A stretch of DNA of 64,000 bases from positions 1 through 64,000 of the forward strand of contig PESC01000032.1 of NCBI GenBank assembly GCA_002929135.1, written 5' to 3'. Each line of letters starts with the position of its first letter. Within the stretch, counting starts at the first letter, position 1. This DNA comes from Methylomonas sp. (GTDB lineage Bacteria > Pseudomonadota > Gammaproteobacteria > Methylococcales > Methylomonadaceae). The notes beneath the pieces were generated by a model. That model was not told the origin of the DNA and did no database searches. It saw only the letters and a list, made by a program, of their open reading frames with translations. Position numbers and translations under genes: made by a program. Shown here piece after piece: positions 12,906 to 21,892 of this stretch.

Positions 12906-13844
12906 TCAGCTGTTGATGCGGTTGTCATGTCTGCGCCGAATCAACAGGCTGATGGCGATGGCGCCTGATATGAAGCTCCAGGCCGAGGTGGGTAACGGGA
13001 TGGGGTTGGGGCCGTACAAGGCCTGGATGCCCGCGATGTCGTCGGCTGCCAGCGTTCGTTGCAGGGCGTCGCAGCAGCCTGCACCGACGTACATGATGGC
13101 AAGCTCTTCACCCGGCGACAGGCCGTCGGCTTCCGGGTGTCCCAAGCCCAGGGCATGGCCCAGTTCGTGTATCAGTAGGCCTTCGATGTCGTTGGGAAAG
13201 CCGCCGGACGCATCGCCGTCCTGCAGGCCGGGGAAGTGCGAGAAAAATGCCAGGTTGTTCAACGAGATGTCGCCAGTGGTGGTCGGGTTCCATGTCGTGC
13301 GGAAGTTGGTGCCACCCGGCGGTTCGAAACCAAATCCGGCGCAGCAATCGAAAGGGTCGGTCAATGGAAACGCGCCGATGCGGATGTCGCCGGCATTGGT
13401 GCCGCTTGCGTCCGGATGCGCCATCGGCAGGCCGCTATCGACGATTTCGACGAACTGTAAATCGGCAACCGCTGCCCAGGTGGCGAAGGCTCGGGTCAGG
13501 GCGCTGCGGAAGATCAGCGCACCATTGGCAGGGTTGCTGTCGAGTTGGGTGTAGATGGATGTCAGATTGCTCGGCCCGCTCCAGAAATCCTGAAACAGGA
13601 ATTCGTTGGTTCCTGCGGGCAGGCTGGGCAGGTCGGCTGTGCGCAACACGTCGGTTCCGTCTGGAATCAGGCTCCAGGTGACGGTGGCACCGGTGCCCAG
13701 GGTGAAGTCACCCCATTTCGGTTGACCCTCAAACAGCAGGTAGGCGGCAGCGGACTGTCCATACAGCGCCAGGCAAGCCAGGCAAAAGACTTTTGGCCAG
13801 TGTTGTTTATGTCGAATCGTCATGTCGGTTCTCCCCAAAATCAT
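12906..13844 (-). CDS. Matrixin-like (metzincin, M10) zinc metalloprotease with PEP-CTERM-like C-terminus
   Basis: HELGHALGLGHPEADGLSPGEELAIMY zinc motif plus Met-turn; signal peptide; C-term IPLPTSAWSFISGAIAISLLIRRRHD. Confidence 0.82.
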   Translation of the reverse strand: MILGRTDMTIRHKQHWPKVFCLACLALYGQSAAAYLLFEGQPKWGDFTLGTGATVTWSLIPDGTDVLRTADLPSLPAGTNEFLFQDFWSGPSNLTSIYTQLDSNPANGALIFRSALTRAFATWAAVADLQFVEIVDSGLPMAHPDASGTNAGDIRIGAFPLTDPFDCCAGFGFEPPGGTNFRTTWNPTTTGDISLNNLAFFSHFPGLQDGDASGGFPNDIEGLLIHELGHALGLGHPEADGLSPGEELAIMYVGAGCCDALQRTLAADDIAGIQALYGPNPIPLPTSAWSFISGAIAISLLIRRRHDNRINS

Positions 13845-14601: not shown

Positions 14602-16389
14602 ATGACAACATCCGCAAACCCGCAGCCAGCCAGTCGCGATGACCCCTCGTTGCGGCGGGCTGTCGTGCTGGAGCTGATACGGCTGCACGCCGGTATGCTG
14701 TTGCGTCTGCCCTGGGTGCTGCTGTTCATGGCCTGCGGCATAGGCTGGCTGATACATGCCCATGTTGTGGTCTCATCCTGGGTGGCCTGGGCTGGTGGCA
14801 CGGTGGCGGCGGAATGCTTGCGTGCGGCCTACGCCAAACGGGTTTTGCAACACATTCATCGCCTCGATCCCGACAAGGTGCATAGCCGCCTGACCTGGCT
14901 GGCCGCGTGTGCCGGAGGTATGGTCGGGCTTTGTCCGGTGCTGTTCCTGCGCTTCATGCCGATAGCGGATCAGGCGGTACTGGTCATCGTGCTGTTTGCC
15001 ACACCCGCAGCGGGTGTTTCCGTCGCGGTGTCGTCCCGGCAGATTCTGGCGGCTTATTCGCTATTGATACTGGCGCCGTGCGGGCTGAGCTGGATTATGC
15101 TGTATCCGCAACACACAGGCCCGGCCAGTGCGCTGACCGCGCTGTACTGGCTGTTTATTCTAGGCGTGGCTGGTGACGGTGAGCATTTGCTGCGCCGCGC
15201 CGTTTTGATCCGTAACCAGCGCGACCAGACTTTGCAAGACCTGGAACGACGCAATGCCGATGTGCAGGCTGCCATGGAACGCGCCGAACAGTCATCGCAG
15301 GCGCGTGATCGGGTGCTGGCGGCTGCCAGCCACGATTTGCGCCAGCCGCTGCATGCCTTGTCGGTGTACAGCGCCATCCTGGTAGCCAGGCCAAGTCAGG
15401 AAGTGCTGCCGGAAATCGCGCAAAACATCGACAAACTGGTGCGCAATCTGGGCGGCTTGCTGCATGGGTTGCTGGATTTGTCGCGGCTGTCTGCCGGGCA
15501 TTACGCCGTGGACAGGCAGCGCGTGTCGCTGGATCGGCTGGCGGAGGATATTTGCCGCGAGTTCGACGCCCAGGCCGCCGACAAAGACCTGACACTGCGG
15601 CGTGACCTGCAACATGTGCGCCTGTACGACGATCCGCTCGTCATTGGCCGCATCGTGCGTAATTTGCTGGATAACGCCATCAAGTACACCGATCACGGCC
15701 ATGTCGGCGTCCAGACCTGTAAAACCGGCAGCCGCGCAGTGCTGGCGATAACGGATACCGGCAGAGGCATTCCGCAGAGCGAACAGGATCGCATTTTCGA
15801 AGAGTTTTACCAGTTGGGCAATCCTGGCCGGGATTACGGGCGCGGCGTCGGGCTGGGGTTGGCCATCGTCAAGCGGCTGTGTGATTTGATAGGCGCCGAC
15901 ATCGGGCTGGTTTCACAACCTGGGCGCGGCACCCGTTTCGAAATTTTGTTCGACAGCCGGGATGACGGTCCTCATCGATACACCGGTACCGCCACGGCCA
16001 ATCTGAACAGCCTGCGCGGCAAAAGCGTTTATCTGGTCGATGACGAAACCGACATCCTTCATGCGATGAATCTGTTGCTGAAATCCTGGGGACTGAAGGT
16101 GCGGACGGCGGCGTCCATCGTGGCAGCGGAGGCCTTGTTCGAGCAACATGGCAAACCCGACTGGTTGATTGCCGATCTGCGCCTTGGCGAGCCGGAAGAC
16201 GGCTTGAGCATGGCCAGCCGCTTGCGCCAAATCCACGGCTACTTTCCGGTGCTCATCATTACCGGCGACAGGGCACCCGAGCAGTTTCAGACCTTTGCCG
16301 CATCCGGTTTTCGCTTGCTGCAAAAACCCATCGTCGCCGAAAAACTGGCTGGCAAACTGCTGTTCATGCACGATAGCCGGGTTGCCTGA
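14602..16389 (+). CDS. Membrane hybrid sensor histidine kinase (HisKA-HATPase-REC)
   Basis: N-terminal TM segments; ASHDLRQPLHALSVYS H-box; N/G boxes; C-terminal receiver VYLVDDETDIL..LIADLRLG. Start 2 nt after the response-regulator stop. Confidence 0.9.
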   Translation: MTTSANPQPASRDDPSLRRAVVLELIRLHAGMLLRLPWVLLFMACGIGWLIHAHVVVSSWVAWAGGTVAAECLRAAYAKRVLQHIHRLDPDKVHSRLTWLAACAGGMVGLCPVLFLRFMPIADQAVLVIVLFATPAAGVSVAVSSRQILAAYSLLILAPCGLSWIMLYPQHTGPASALTALYWLFILGVAGDGEHLLRRAVLIRNQRDQTLQDLERRNADVQAAMERAEQSSQARDRVLAAASHDLRQPLHALSVYSAILVARPSQEVLPEIAQNIDKLVRNLGGLLHGLLDLSRLSAGHYAVDRQRVSLDRLAEDICREFDAQAADKDLTLRRDLQHVRLYDDPLVIGRIVRNLLDNAIKYTDHGHVGVQTCKTGSRAVLAITDTGRGIPQSEQDRIFEEFYQLGNPGRDYGRGVGLGLAIVKRLCDLIGADIGLVSQPGRGTRFEILFDSRDDGPHRYTGTATANLNSLRGKSVYLVDDETDILHAMNLLLKSWGLKVRTAASIVAAEALFEQHGKPDWLIADLRLGEPEDGLSMASRLRQIHGYFPVLIITGDRAPEQFQTFAASGFRLLQKPIVAEKLAGKLLFMHDSRVA

Positions 16390-16957
16390 ATTCATCGATG
16401 TCGGGGTTGTCGACGCGGTCGTAAATGGCTTCGACGCTCAAGTCCAGACCGATAGCCTCGAATGTCACTACATCGCCCAGGAAGTAGTATTCCGGCAGCC
16501 ACTGGTTTTTCCGCCGCAATACCTGCACCGATACGATGTCGGCTTCGATCATCACGTATTCCTGCAACGACGGCAGGTTGATGTAGCGCAGCAATTTGGT
16601 GGTGGTATCGGTTTTGCGCGTCGAACGTGACAGCACTTCGACGATGATGACCGGCGAGGTCGATACGCTGTCGCTACCCGACAGTTTGCTGCAATCGACC
16701 AGTACATCGGGGTAGACGTAATCCTGGCCGATGCGGACTTTCATATCGGCCATGAAGGGTGCGCATGGCGTACCTTCCAGATGATTGCCGAATTTTCTCA
16801 GCATGTTTGCCGCGACGCAGTTGTGGTTGTAGCTGGCACCTGCCATGGCATGTACCTGGCTGCCGATGTATTCGTGTTTGACGGCTGATTCCGCCTCGCT
16901 GGCGAGATACTCGGCCTCGCTGATAAAGATCGGTTCTATGGTTTGTTGCAATGCCAT
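16364..16957 (-). CDS. Uma2 family endonuclease (DUF820)
   Basis: ISEAEYLASEAESAVKHEYIGSQVHAMAGASYNHN...YPDVLVDCSK...PVIIVEVLSRSTRKTDTTTKLLRYINLPSLQEYVMI, typical Uma2. Confidence 0.88.
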   Translation of the reverse strand: MALQQTIEPIFISEAEYLASEAESAVKHEYIGSQVHAMAGASYNHNCVAANMLRKFGNHLEGTPCAPFMADMKVRIGQDYVYPDVLVDCSKLSGSDSVSTSPVIIVEVLSRSTRKTDTTTKLLRYINLPSLQEYVMIEADIVSVQVLRRKNQWLPEYYFLGDVVTFEAIGLDLSVEAIYDRVDNPDIDEFRQPGYRA

Positions 16958-17100: not shown

Positions 17101-19269
17101 TCATTCCTGCGAACCCTGCAGACGGGTCACCCAGGCCTCCCTGGCCAGCGGGTCGACATGAAACGCCAGTGCCGTCGGTTTGTGCAGCAAACCTGTTTCA
17201 CCGGATGCATTGGGGTTGAGCTGACGTTTTTCGATGAAGTCGGTCAGACGGCGCAGGTGATACACCGCCAGCACGCGGTTGCTGTCGGCACCGGCATAAA
17301 TCAGATAAGCCACATTATCTTCACTCAGCGCCGGGTTGCGTTCGATCAAACGCACCAGTTCGTCATCGTCGCCAGCGGCCAGATGGCGTAACAGTGAGTC
17401 GTCATGCTGGTGGATCAGGGTCTTGCAATGGCCGGACAAGTCGCAGGCCAGTTGCGCGCGTTGCAGCGCACCGACGTCGGCATCGTCCAGCAGCAGGCTT
17501 TCCGCCACCAGATAATGGCGGTCGCGGTCGCCGTCGTTGGCGAACAGCGAGATTTTGTCGAGTGCGGTGTCTTGCAAGGCCAGCAAAAATTCCATGGGTG
17601 AACGGATGTGCTTGTCCACCGTCACCACCCACGGCAAGGCGCGACCTGTGGCGTCGAAGCGGTTTTTGACGCTGCCGATGACACCGGCACGCGACAATTC
17701 CTGTTCCCGCCCGACCGGTTTGACCAGAAAGGCATCGACCGCGACGATTTGGGTGTAAAACCCGGCGTCGTGAAACTGGCTGATGGTGGTCGAATAACGC
17801 GGGCGGTAAGGAATGCCGGTGCCGTCGTACAACAGGTTGATGCGCGTCAGGCGTGCATGGTCGGCCACCAGATCGCGCAGACGGTTGGCAAACGGTTCGA
17901 CGTAAACGTAATCGTCGCTGTGATGGTTGGCGGCGGTCAGCAAACGGTAGAGGTCGCTGAGTTTGCGAAATTCGTCCAGCGAGGCGGTGACGAAATTATC
18001 GCCACACTCGGCCTTGGCAATGTCCTCGACCACTGTTTTGCCTGCACCGGCACCGCCCATGCACATGAATAGTTTGGGCTGATCGCTGGGGGTTTTGCCT
18101 TGAAAAATGGCATCACGCGCGGTGAGCAACATGCGGTTGACCTTGGCCAGGCGCGGATAGGCAATCTCGACCGTGCGCATCAACCGGGTTTCGCCCTGGC
18201 AGGCGGCCAGCATTTTGTCGCGCAACAGCGGGTTGTCGGCCAGCATGAACAAATTGGCGCTGTCACCGGCGCATTGTTTGAGTACATCGATCAGTTCGGC
18301 ATGGCTGGGTGGTCTCAGCCCGGTCAGCATATTGATGTCCAGACAGAATAGCGGGGCGACGCCATCGTCGCGAATCGGAATGGCGTCGACTTCGCGTTTG
18401 CCGACTACGCGCAAATCCTCGGTGCCCGGCAGATAGCCGATGACATGTTCGGACACGCTGAGCGGATTGTCGGCGAAATGCTGGCCGGTGATGAAGCGGT
18501 CGACCTCGATGGATTGCAAGGCCACCAGACCGCCGGTGACAGTGACCAGGCATTCGATGCCGTCATCTGTCGTGTGCGACAAAAACGGGATGCCTTGCAG
18601 AAAACGCTTGTTCTCCGGCCATTTGCCGTAACCGTTGGCTTGGTTCAGCAGATTGTGATTGCGGGTTGGATCCAGGGCATGACCAAATGCGCGGGCGACC
18701 TCGCGATGGGTGCTGTCCAGGCAATGTAAAGCCTGGGTGTCCTCGGTACTTAGGCGGCGAAAGTCCATGCCTTGCTGATACACGGCTTTGAACGCCGGTA
18801 AATTGGCCAGGGCGATCATGAAAAAATCCAGTGTGATGCGGTTGCCGTATCCGAAAGGCCGGGTGGTGCGCACGGCGCAGTAGAACGCCGCCAGGCGGTC
18901 GGCAATGTCGGCGGTTTGCATGACAAAGCCGTTGTTGTCGAAAATCGCGCTGTCGCTGTTGCTGTCGCCGTCTAGCACCAGGGTTTCGATGGCAATGCGA
19001 AATTTCTTGCGTGAATCGGAATTGGGCATGGTGCCGGGGCGATGATCTACCGTGACCTGTTGCTTCCAGTCGCTGAACATGTCGCGGTGTATGCGGGAGA
19101 ACAGGCCGGTCAGATAGGTGACGCGCTTGGTTTGATCGTGCGATACCGTGGCTTCGAGTTCCTGCAACAGTACTGAGCGCAGACGCATGCCTTTGGCGAC
19201 GGCCAGCGCGGTGCGCAAGCGTTTGAGTGGCCGATAGGCGGGAATGCCCCGACCGGGATTTTGACTCAT
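17101..19269 (-). CDS. Large zeta-toxin-like P-loop kinase domain protein with uncharacterised N-terminal region
   Basis: 722 aa; Walker A MGGAGAGKT then ASLDEFRKL..., LLYDGTGIPYRPRY as in zeta-toxin/PNK-like kinases; N-terminal half contains RPFGYGNRITLDFFMIALA. Confidence 0.65.
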   Translation of the reverse strand: MSQNPGRGIPAYRPLKRLRTALAVAKGMRLRSVLLQELEATVSHDQTKRVTYLTGLFSRIHRDMFSDWKQQVTVDHRPGTMPNSDSRKKFRIAIETLVLDGDSNSDSAIFDNNGFVMQTADIADRLAAFYCAVRTTRPFGYGNRITLDFFMIALANLPAFKAVYQQGMDFRRLSTEDTQALHCLDSTHREVARAFGHALDPTRNHNLLNQANGYGKWPENKRFLQGIPFLSHTTDDGIECLVTVTGGLVALQSIEVDRFITGQHFADNPLSVSEHVIGYLPGTEDLRVVGKREVDAIPIRDDGVAPLFCLDINMLTGLRPPSHAELIDVLKQCAGDSANLFMLADNPLLRDKMLAACQGETRLMRTVEIAYPRLAKVNRMLLTARDAIFQGKTPSDQPKLFMCMGGAGAGKTVVEDIAKAECGDNFVTASLDEFRKLSDLYRLLTAANHHSDDYVYVEPFANRLRDLVADHARLTRINLLYDGTGIPYRPRYSTTISQFHDAGFYTQIVAVDAFLVKPVGREQELSRAGVIGSVKNRFDATGRALPWVVTVDKHIRSPMEFLLALQDTALDKISLFANDGDRDRHYLVAESLLLDDADVGALQRAQLACDLSGHCKTLIHQHDDSLLRHLAAGDDDELVRLIERNPALSEDNVAYLIYAGADSNRVLAVYHLRRLTDFIEKRQLNPNASGETGLLHKPTALAFHVDPLAREAWVTRLQGSQE

Positions 19270-20043: not shown

Positions 20044-20514
20044 TCATGTATAGCGCCAATCGTCAAAACAGGCGGCCTGGCCACAATAAAGCCCGTTCGC
20101 ATCGTAGACATTCCAGATGACAGCATGGTTAATGACGAACCGGCGTCCCGATTTGGAAATTCGCACACCCGAGTAATGCTCGACATAACCTGCCGTTGCA
20201 ACCGTTTTAAGCAAATGGTCGCGCTGGCTGCGTTCCAAGGGTTCGGCGGAAAAGCGTGATGGCAATGCAATCAGTTCGGGCCAGGACAGCTCGAACAGTT
20301 TCAGGGCGGTGCGATTGGCGTAGTTGAACAGCGGGTCGGTAGCGGTATCGTGTGACAACACGGCAAAGTCGGCCTCGAATACGGCTTGTGCCAGGGTTTC
20401 GCCGTCGTCATGGGGTATCAGCGGGCGATGCAGCAAACGCTGATAACTGTCGCACACGCTCTGGATGTGGTGGTGGTGATAACGGTTGGCTGGGGCGGGT
20501 GGCGGGTTGTTCAT
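20044..20514 (-). CDS. MEKHLA/PAS-like domain protein
   Basis: ADFAVLSHDTATDPLFNYANRTALKLFELSWPELIALPSRFSAEPLERSQRDHLL...GYVEHYSGVRISKSGRRF. Confidence 0.75.
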   Translation of the reverse strand: MNNPPPAPANRYHHHHIQSVCDSYQRLLHRPLIPHDDGETLAQAVFEADFAVLSHDTATDPLFNYANRTALKLFELSWPELIALPSRFSAEPLERSQRDHLLKTVATAGYVEHYSGVRISKSGRRFVINHAVIWNVYDANGLYCGQAACFDDWRYT

Positions 20515-20565: not shown

Positions 20566-21870
20566 TCAGGTTTCGCCGCAAGTATCGGAAAACACGACGA
20601 TCCGGTCGCGTCCGCCGGTCTTGGCGGCATACAAGGCGTTGTCGGCTTTTTCGAACAAGGCTTCCAGTGATGGTAGTTCGTGGCCGGGGTAGCCGGACAT
20701 GCCGACACTGACCGTCAGGGCAAGACCGGCCAATCTGCGCTGTTTGAGGTGGCTCAGGGCTTTTTCGATCACGTTGAACGCATGATGGACATCGCACTGA
20801 TGCAGATAAACCACGAATTCCTCGCCGCCCCAGCGAAACACGTAATCGCCTTGGCGAAAGTAATCGCGCAGCCAGAGGCCGAGTTCGGCCAGAACCCGGT
20901 CGCCCTGTATGTGGCCGTGTTCGTCGTTGATTTTCTTGAAATGGTCGATGTCGATGATGGCCAGGCTGACCGGCATCTGGCTGCGCCTGGCGTTATCCAG
21001 CGCTTTGGGTAGCAGGCGGTTGAAGGCGTTGCGATTGTAGAGCTGGGTTACGGGGTCGATCAGTGCGATTTCTTTCAGTACCTCGCGCTCACTGTTGAGT
21101 TGTTTGATGCTGCGGTCGGCTTTGATGAGGTTAGCCACCCGAAACAGCAGTTCCTCCGGATTGACCGGTTTGGCCAGGTAGTCGTTGGCACCGATATTCA
21201 AAAGCTCCATGCGGCGGGAGGCGTCGTCATAAGCCGTCATAACGAAAATCGGCGTGGTCGATTGTGCGCCAGGCAGACGACGTATCGCGCGAATCAGGTT
21301 GAGGCCGCTCATTTTGCCCGCCAGTACGACATCGGTGATGATGCCGTCGTAATCGTTGTTGCTCAGCGCCTGCAATGCCGATTCGCCATCGCTGAAGCTG
21401 TCGACGTAATAACCTTGGGCCGACAGCAGGCTTTGCAGCCACAGCCGTTGCGACTGGGTATCCTCCACCAGCATCACCTTGGCCGCCATGGTTTGTTTGC
21501 ATTGTTCGGCAAAGCGGGCGATGTATATCTGGAACGAGGCAAATTCGCTCTTGTTGTAGATGTCGGTGGCGCCGGCCAGCAGGGCGGCCCTGAGCGTGTC
21601 TTCGTTATCTTCGGCGGTGAACAGGATGATTCTGACGTTTTTCAGCGTCGGCATGCCGCGCATGTAATGGCACAGCACCTCGCCGGACATGTCGGGTAAA
21701 TGATAGGCAATGCAGACCAGTTCGAAACTTTCGGTCTTGCAGGCGGCCAGCGCCTGTTTGCCGTTGTCACAGCACACCGTCGCGAAACCCTGGCTGGCCA
21801 TCAGTTCCGACAGCAGGTTGCGAAACACCCGGGAGCTTTCGACGATCAATACGCTTGGATTGGATGGCAT
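20566..21870 (-). CDS. REC-REC-GGDEF response regulator diguanylate cyclase (PleD-like)
   Basis: Two receiver domains (first with degenerate phospho-site CIAYHLPDMSG, second IITDVVLAGKMSG) and RWGGEEFVVYL. Confidence 0.88.
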   Translation of the reverse strand: MPSNPSVLIVESSRVFRNLLSELMASQGFATVCCDNGKQALAACKTESFELVCIAYHLPDMSGEVLCHYMRGMPTLKNVRIILFTAEDNEDTLRAALLAGATDIYNKSEFASFQIYIARFAEQCKQTMAAKVMLVEDTQSQRLWLQSLLSAQGYYVDSFSDGESALQALSNNDYDGIITDVVLAGKMSGLNLIRAIRRLPGAQSTTPIFVMTAYDDASRRMELLNIGANDYLAKPVNPEELLFRVANLIKADRSIKQLNSEREVLKEIALIDPVTQLYNRNAFNRLLPKALDNARRSQMPVSLAIIDIDHFKKINDEHGHIQGDRVLAELGLWLRDYFRQGDYVFRWGGEEFVVYLHQCDVHHAFNVIEKALSHLKQRRLAGLALTVSVGMSGYPGHELPSLEALFEKADNALYAAKTGGRDRIVVFSDTCGET

Positions 21871-21892
21871 GAGGCGACTGATGAGCAAAGGC

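Follow-up and report, generated by a model that had tools for sequence, protein, structure and literature searches.

The gene at positions 17101–19269 (minus strand) of the window, a stretch of 64,000 nucleotides from a Methylomonas sp. contig, encodes a 722-residue protein in which a zeta-type kinase is fused to a domain of predicted Fic fold that lacks the AMP-transfer motif. We explain it as an antitoxin-free chromosomal kinase controlled in cis by the Fic-fold domain, a reading for which we judge the chances to be evenly balanced; its architecture is well supported, and its mechanism we infer.

Overall architecture

The ORF, first noted from the letters alone, was confirmed on the minus strand, with an ATG start and an AG-rich stretch (AAAAAAAGGGGGAACG) upstream of it. 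The gene is complete (722 aa plus stop), as judged from the ORF call and from orthologs that align over the full length. From the N-terminus, the protein comprises a Fic-fold domain, a β region, a helical linker, the zeta-type kinase and a conserved C-terminal tail, and all parts described below are encoded on the minus strand.

The Fic-fold domain (residues about 12–200, positions 18670–19236) was delimited by AlphaFold2 helices and PDB fold matches, the predicted helices spanning residues 12–40, 49–68, 84–95, 122–136, 141–155 and onward. Residues 69–83 (19021–19065) form the putative counterpart of the Fic flap, assigned from the element order of EcFicT and from conservation, and include HRPG 76–79, which is invariant in the ortholog alignment. 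An insert ahead of the motif helix (residues 97–117, 18919–18981), recognized from homolog column counts and the AlphaFold2 model, holds the invariant F110-D111-x-N113-G114-F115. The altered Fic motif itself, RPFGYGNRITLD (residues 137–148, 18826–18861), was placed by the columns of 84 homologs and an ungapped register with EcFicT.

In the AlphaFold2 model, a β-strand-rich region follows (residues 201–321, 18307–18669), for which the Pfam search gave no family match, and then a helical linker (residues 322–388, 18106–18306) whose long helix 361–388 runs straight into the kinase. The kinase domain (Pfam PF06414, residues 386–574, 17548–18114) was defined by Pfam and Foldseek. The C-terminal tail, KRQLNPNASGETGLLHKPTALAFHVDP (residues 681–707, 17149–17229; KRQLNPNASGE-x-GLLHKP-x-ALAFHVDP), was delimited by conservation in homologs and few other stretches of the protein are as strongly conserved, despite pLDDT values below 50 at residues 682–704 in the AlphaFold2 model; it is possibly a docking or active-site tail.

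The C-terminal half has an intact zeta-type kinase signature

Pfam assigned residues 386–574 to Zeta_toxin with E=1.5e-14 (54.4 bits against a cut-off of 22.3), and PF06414 matched 28 of the 28 family members scanned. The zeta-toxin-like kinase that the sequence-only reading had proposed is thereby upheld, as are the three motifs on which it had relied, GGAGAGKT (405–412), ASLDEF (429–434) and LLYDGTG (479–485). By sequence and by fold alike, the best solved relatives of this half are PezT and zeta; Foldseek of the full-length model against zeta 1gvn and PezT 2p5t returned E values of about 1e-7 to 1e-6 and TMt of 0.57–0.61. In a viral fold library, the matches were zeta and kinase proteins only, all to the C-terminal half.

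Five residues are invariant in 84/84 homologs: K411, D432, T484, R537 and R543. K411 belongs to the Walker A motif (residues 405–412, 18034–18057). D432 (17974–17976) aligns with Asp67 of zeta, the proposed catalytic base, and is the counterpart of Asp66 of PezT, which is needed for activity and toxicity, whereas T484, within YDGT 481–484 (17818–17829), aligns with the substrate-contacting Thr118 of zeta. Arginines R521, R527, R537 and R543, candidates for the two substrate-loop arginines of zeta toxins, are invariant or nearly so, in a loop that differs in length from that of zeta and has pLDDT below 50; the region carrying them, residues 514–555, is poorly predicted by AlphaFold2. The catalytic Asp, and the Arg residues, whose loss would have counted against the earlier proposal, are thus invariant or nearly so. 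Judged by profile and residues, the kinase signature is intact and the protein belongs to the Zeta_toxin family.

In the same genome, PF06414 also scored above its curated cut-off on an FtsY-type SRP GTPase, an Ffh-type SRP GTPase and an APH-AAA_33 protein. Because the model recognizes such proteins too, a Zeta_toxin annotation based on it alone is unsafe.

Zeta, PezT and the Neisseria enzyme ng-zeta1 phosphorylate UDP-amino-sugars, ng-zeta1 acting on UDP-MurNAc/UDP-GlcNAc, and by analogy with this family the substrate here is probably a UDP-amino-sugar as well. It is possible, if rather doubtful, that the kinase instead targets another small molecule or a nucleic acid rather than cell-wall precursors: PF06414 extends to AAA_33, APH-AAA_33 and even SRP GTPases, and an insert at about residues 515–536, between a strand and the arginine motif, is absent from the zeta sequences aligned. 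Against this, the top sequence and fold matches are specifically zeta and PezT, and the counterparts of Asp67 and Thr118 are invariant.

A Fic fold is predicted for the N-terminal half

Searches by sequence (HMMER, Pfam, NCBIfam and hhalign) all left the relation to Fic below significance. The NCBIfam model PRK10347 gave E=0.1 with the window protein and E=0.021 with the best member (7 of 28 members matched), and EcFicT of E. coli (5jff) gave E=0.1–0.3; both hints fall at about residues 45–162. Pfam Fic (PF02661) yielded nothing above the cut-off (best E=0.07, two of 28 members), and the hhalign comparison with Fic proteins was not significant (probability 0.5%, P=0.13), yet placed the motif in register.

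Since kinase matches dominated the fold search with the full-length model, the N-terminal part was modeled separately: an AlphaFold2 model of residues 8–331, built on a 59-sequence alignment, had a mean pLDDT of 74.6, with values of about 78–93 in the blocks of ten residues that surround the motif. In Foldseek, the 50 PDB entries ranked highest for this model were without exception Fic proteins, the top match reaching a probability of 1.00, with TM-scores mostly at 0.45–0.55 of the target. The order of elements (helix, flap, helix, and the motif between α4 and α5) is that described for EcFicT. The structure check that had been proposed for this half predicted a Fic fold rather than a non-Fic one.

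An accidental resemblance, in which the N-terminal domain would be an unrelated helical bundle, appears very unlikely to us. Such a bundle would accord with sequence matches that stay below significance and with Foldseek results among which none reached E≤0.001 (best 2.9e-3), but it leaves unexplained why the best 50 PDB matches are all Fic, at probabilities up to 1.00, and why the motif sits at the α4–α5 turn, as in Fic proteins. The predicted Fic fold of this half is accordingly supported because the ranking is unanimous and the motif position agrees with it, not because of any single score.

The Fic motif is replaced at conserved positions

The sequence-only reading had quoted a Fic-core-like stretch with the His and the acidic residue replaced; the stretch is present and the replacements go further. 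In the ungapped register with EcFicT, HPFx[D/E]GNGRxxR becomes RPFxYGNRITLD in the window protein. Across the 84 homologs, the His position is occupied by Arg (82/84) or Lys (2/84) and the acidic position by Tyr (81/84) or Phe (3/84); Gly142-Asn143 is invariant, the Gly that follows is Arg in 83/84, the first motif Arg is mainly Ile/Leu, and the second is Asp in 84/84. The pattern HxFx[D/E]GNGRxxR with its His and both Arg was therefore not found in these homologs, which carry Arg, Tyr, Arg, Ile/Leu and Asp instead, and the canonical pattern survives only at F/Y139 and Gly142-Asn143. Nor is an inhibitory (S/T)xxxE(G/N) helix kept: the candidate E190 occurs in 35/84 homologs, and an N-terminal T33xxxE37 lacks the G/N, T33 being present in 58/84. 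With the catalytic motif replaced, canonical AMP transfer by the Fic-fold domain is, from its residues, very unlikely. The same genome has five separate loci that match Pfam Fic above the cut-off, and the one inspected has an intact HPFFDGNGR.

The near-fixation of Arg137, Tyr141 and Asp148 in homologs indicates that the replacements were selected and that the domain is not decaying. Simple Nei-Gojobori estimates of dN/dS in the Fic-fold region were about 0.02–0.17, similar to the kinase, and are rough, with dS often near saturation; as estimated from the sequences, purifying selection acts strongly on both halves.

The replaced positions being almost invariant, the protein might be a bifunctional enzyme, in which the Fic fold runs a new reaction through Arg137, Tyr141, Asn143, Arg144 and Asp148 and the kinase supplies or uses the same nucleotide sugar. 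The Fido fold does host other chemistries, as in AvrB, which lacks the motif and is a reported glycosyltransferase (PMC10866546), and EcFicT likewise has an altered motif and a proposed substrate that is unknown. We nevertheless regard this arrangement as fairly improbable, given that the pocket lacks a catalytic base of known type and that conservation alone cannot tell catalysis from ligand binding.

Distribution and inheritance

Full-length orthologs with 58–75% identity occur in Methylococcales. They were found in 67 of 101 genomes of the same family, a few cut by contig ends, and in 108 of the 201 Methylococcales genomes sampled, full length in nearly all, with one locus per genome and two genomes that show the gene in two pieces. 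The carriers span four families of the order and include Methylomonas, Methylovulum, Methylobacter, Crenothrix, an endosymbiont of Gigantopelta aegis and other Methylococcales. Absence from nearly half of the sampled genomes of the order implies that the gene is dispensable in some lineages.

Outside the family, samples of 369 genomes of the class and 399 of the phylum gave matches to the zeta kinase only, in two genomes, and the profile of the N-terminal half found nothing convincing above noise outside Methylococcales. Plasmids and viral contigs held zero homologs, and phages only distant streptococcal zeta toxins. Among 229 genomes of the class, PF06414 had 13 strong matches, and the architecture was spanned by the window protein alone; the longer PF06414 proteins scanned among those 13 were AAA_33 or APH-AAA_33.

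In the tree, the window gene falls within a Methylomonas clade, and the pairwise distances in the Fic-fold part correlate with those in the kinase part (r=0.82), from which it follows that the fusion is old and has traveled as a unit. The gene is chromosomal, restricted to the order and mostly vertically inherited. A link to methane oxidation itself was considered and rejected: pmoA is present in 166/201 Methylococcales genomes, many of them without the gene, which thus does not simply track methane oxidation.

Genomic neighborhood

The gene is flanked by a Uma2-family gene (143 bases away) and a small lipoprotein-like ORF (274 bases). The former, a putative nuclease gene at 16364–16957 (minus strand), lies directly downstream, and Uma2-like neighbors were seen in few loci only. 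No neighbor is conserved: the commonest cluster, which lies on the opposite strand, accompanies the gene at 13 of 73 loci. Scans for promoters and terminators yielded no signal exceeding that of shuffled sequences, and PADLOC returned no match. Elsewhere in the window, 12906–13844 (minus strand) encodes a Matrixin-type metalloprotease (Peptidase_M10) whose hydrophobic, arginine-containing C-terminus resembles a PEP-CTERM sorting signal, and 20566–21888 (minus strand) encodes two response-regulator receiver domains and a GGDEF domain, adjoining a MEKHLA-domain gene at 20044–20514.

An epsilon-type antitoxin, noticed as missing when the sequence was first read, is absent beside the gene and across its orthologs, and within 600 bases no small ORF is common to more than 13/84 loci. 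The protein could be a toxin-antitoxin system in one chain, its N-terminal half a fused, permanently present antitoxin that blocks the kinase until proteolysis or a conformational trigger frees it as a toxic enzyme: a separate antitoxin is lacking in every ortholog neighborhood, yet the kinase signature is intact, and the long helix 361–388 enters the kinase directly. We consider this unlikely, as the prediction for the N-terminal half is a Fic fold, not an epsilon fold, and the distribution is vertical and chromosomal, unlike that of most toxin-antitoxin modules.

Fic domains, like zeta domains, are found in toxins and effectors. The gene had been suspected to encode a Fic-zeta fusion effector or a standalone toxin. 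The fusion, its degenerate motif and the intact kinase stand; the role of effector or toxin is not supported. A secreted effector or inter-bacterial toxin is extremely improbable for a strongly constrained, single-locus chromosomal gene that is confined to one order, has no partner conserved alongside it, shows no mobile-element association and is missing from plasmids, phages and viral contigs.

A model of control in cis

In the preferred reading, an antitoxin-free kinase governed by its Fic-fold domain, the kinase, like characterized zeta toxins, would phosphorylate a sugar nucleotide, for which UDP-GlcNAc or UDP-MurNAc is the likeliest candidate. The Fic-fold module would bind a nucleotide or peptide without AMPylating and set kinase activity in cis, in the role that epsilon plays for free zeta. 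Under stress, the protein would then slow the use of cell-wall precursors in a regulated way, rather than serve as a toxin for addiction or against other bacteria. What speaks most strongly for a regulatory N-terminal half is the need for internal restraint, which is likely because a constitutively active zeta kinase without antitoxin is expected to harm its own cell. A regulatory role is proposed for the Fic-fold half; a new enzymatic activity would fit the invariant pocket equally well.

What the conserved replacements suggest is not a classical pair of toxin and antitoxin but a cell-wall-type kinase that carries its own sensor or regulator. In a more specific and quite tentative version, the repurposed Fic fold, with its new invariant pocket (Arg137, Tyr141, Asn143, Arg144, Asp148), either senses or produces a ligand through which the zeta kinase is controlled in cis. 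If this were true, methane-oxidizing Gammaproteobacteria would have a housekeeping cell-wall-precursor switch built from two toxin folds, forming an enzyme class. Zeta kinases and Fic domains have mainly been studied as toxins; here a single conserved chromosomal protein without antitoxin unites them in Methylococcales, an environmentally and industrially important order. The protein offers a clean case of how a toxin-type kinase gets tamed and of what role a Fic fold takes on once its catalytic residues have given way to others that selection then fixed.

Comparison with known systems

Each part of the protein is of a known kind, and no published description of their combination, a Fic-zeta fusion, was found in the titles and abstracts of the open-access papers listed. 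With zeta and PezT (PF06414; 1gvn, 3q8x, 2p5t) it shares the P-loop kinase fold, Walker A, catalytic Asp and substrate Thr, but it differs in having no epsilon antitoxin, a 380-residue Fic-fold N-terminal extension, a conserved C-terminal tail and order-wide, mostly vertical inheritance. It is not a member of the epsilon/zeta (PezAT) toxin-antitoxin system, as it has no adjacent antitoxin and its distribution is not mobile or patchy. Neisseria gonorrhoeae ng-zeta1 (6eph, 6epg) is likewise a longer zeta-type kinase from a Gram-negative host, but it works with an epsilon antitoxin and is a weaker fold match (TMt about 0.25).

With Fic AMP-transferases (PF02661; E. faecalis Fic 5nv5, N. meningitidis Fic, Bartonella Beps) the protein shares the predicted fold and the motif position, whereas the His, Asp/Glu, Gly and both Arg of HxFx[D/E]GNGRxxR are replaced; on the model, it is Fic-like by fold and not a Fic AMP-transferase. 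Among Fic proteins, EcFicT (5jff, 5jfz) gave the best sequence match. Its motif is altered too, the acidic residue and the first Arg having given way to hydrophobic ones, but EcFicT keeps the His and second Arg, has a separate antitoxin, EcFicA, and carries no kinase. AvrB has a Fido-type fold and, like the window protein, no Fic motif; it differs in having no kinase and was not within the best 50 fold matches of the 8–331 model.
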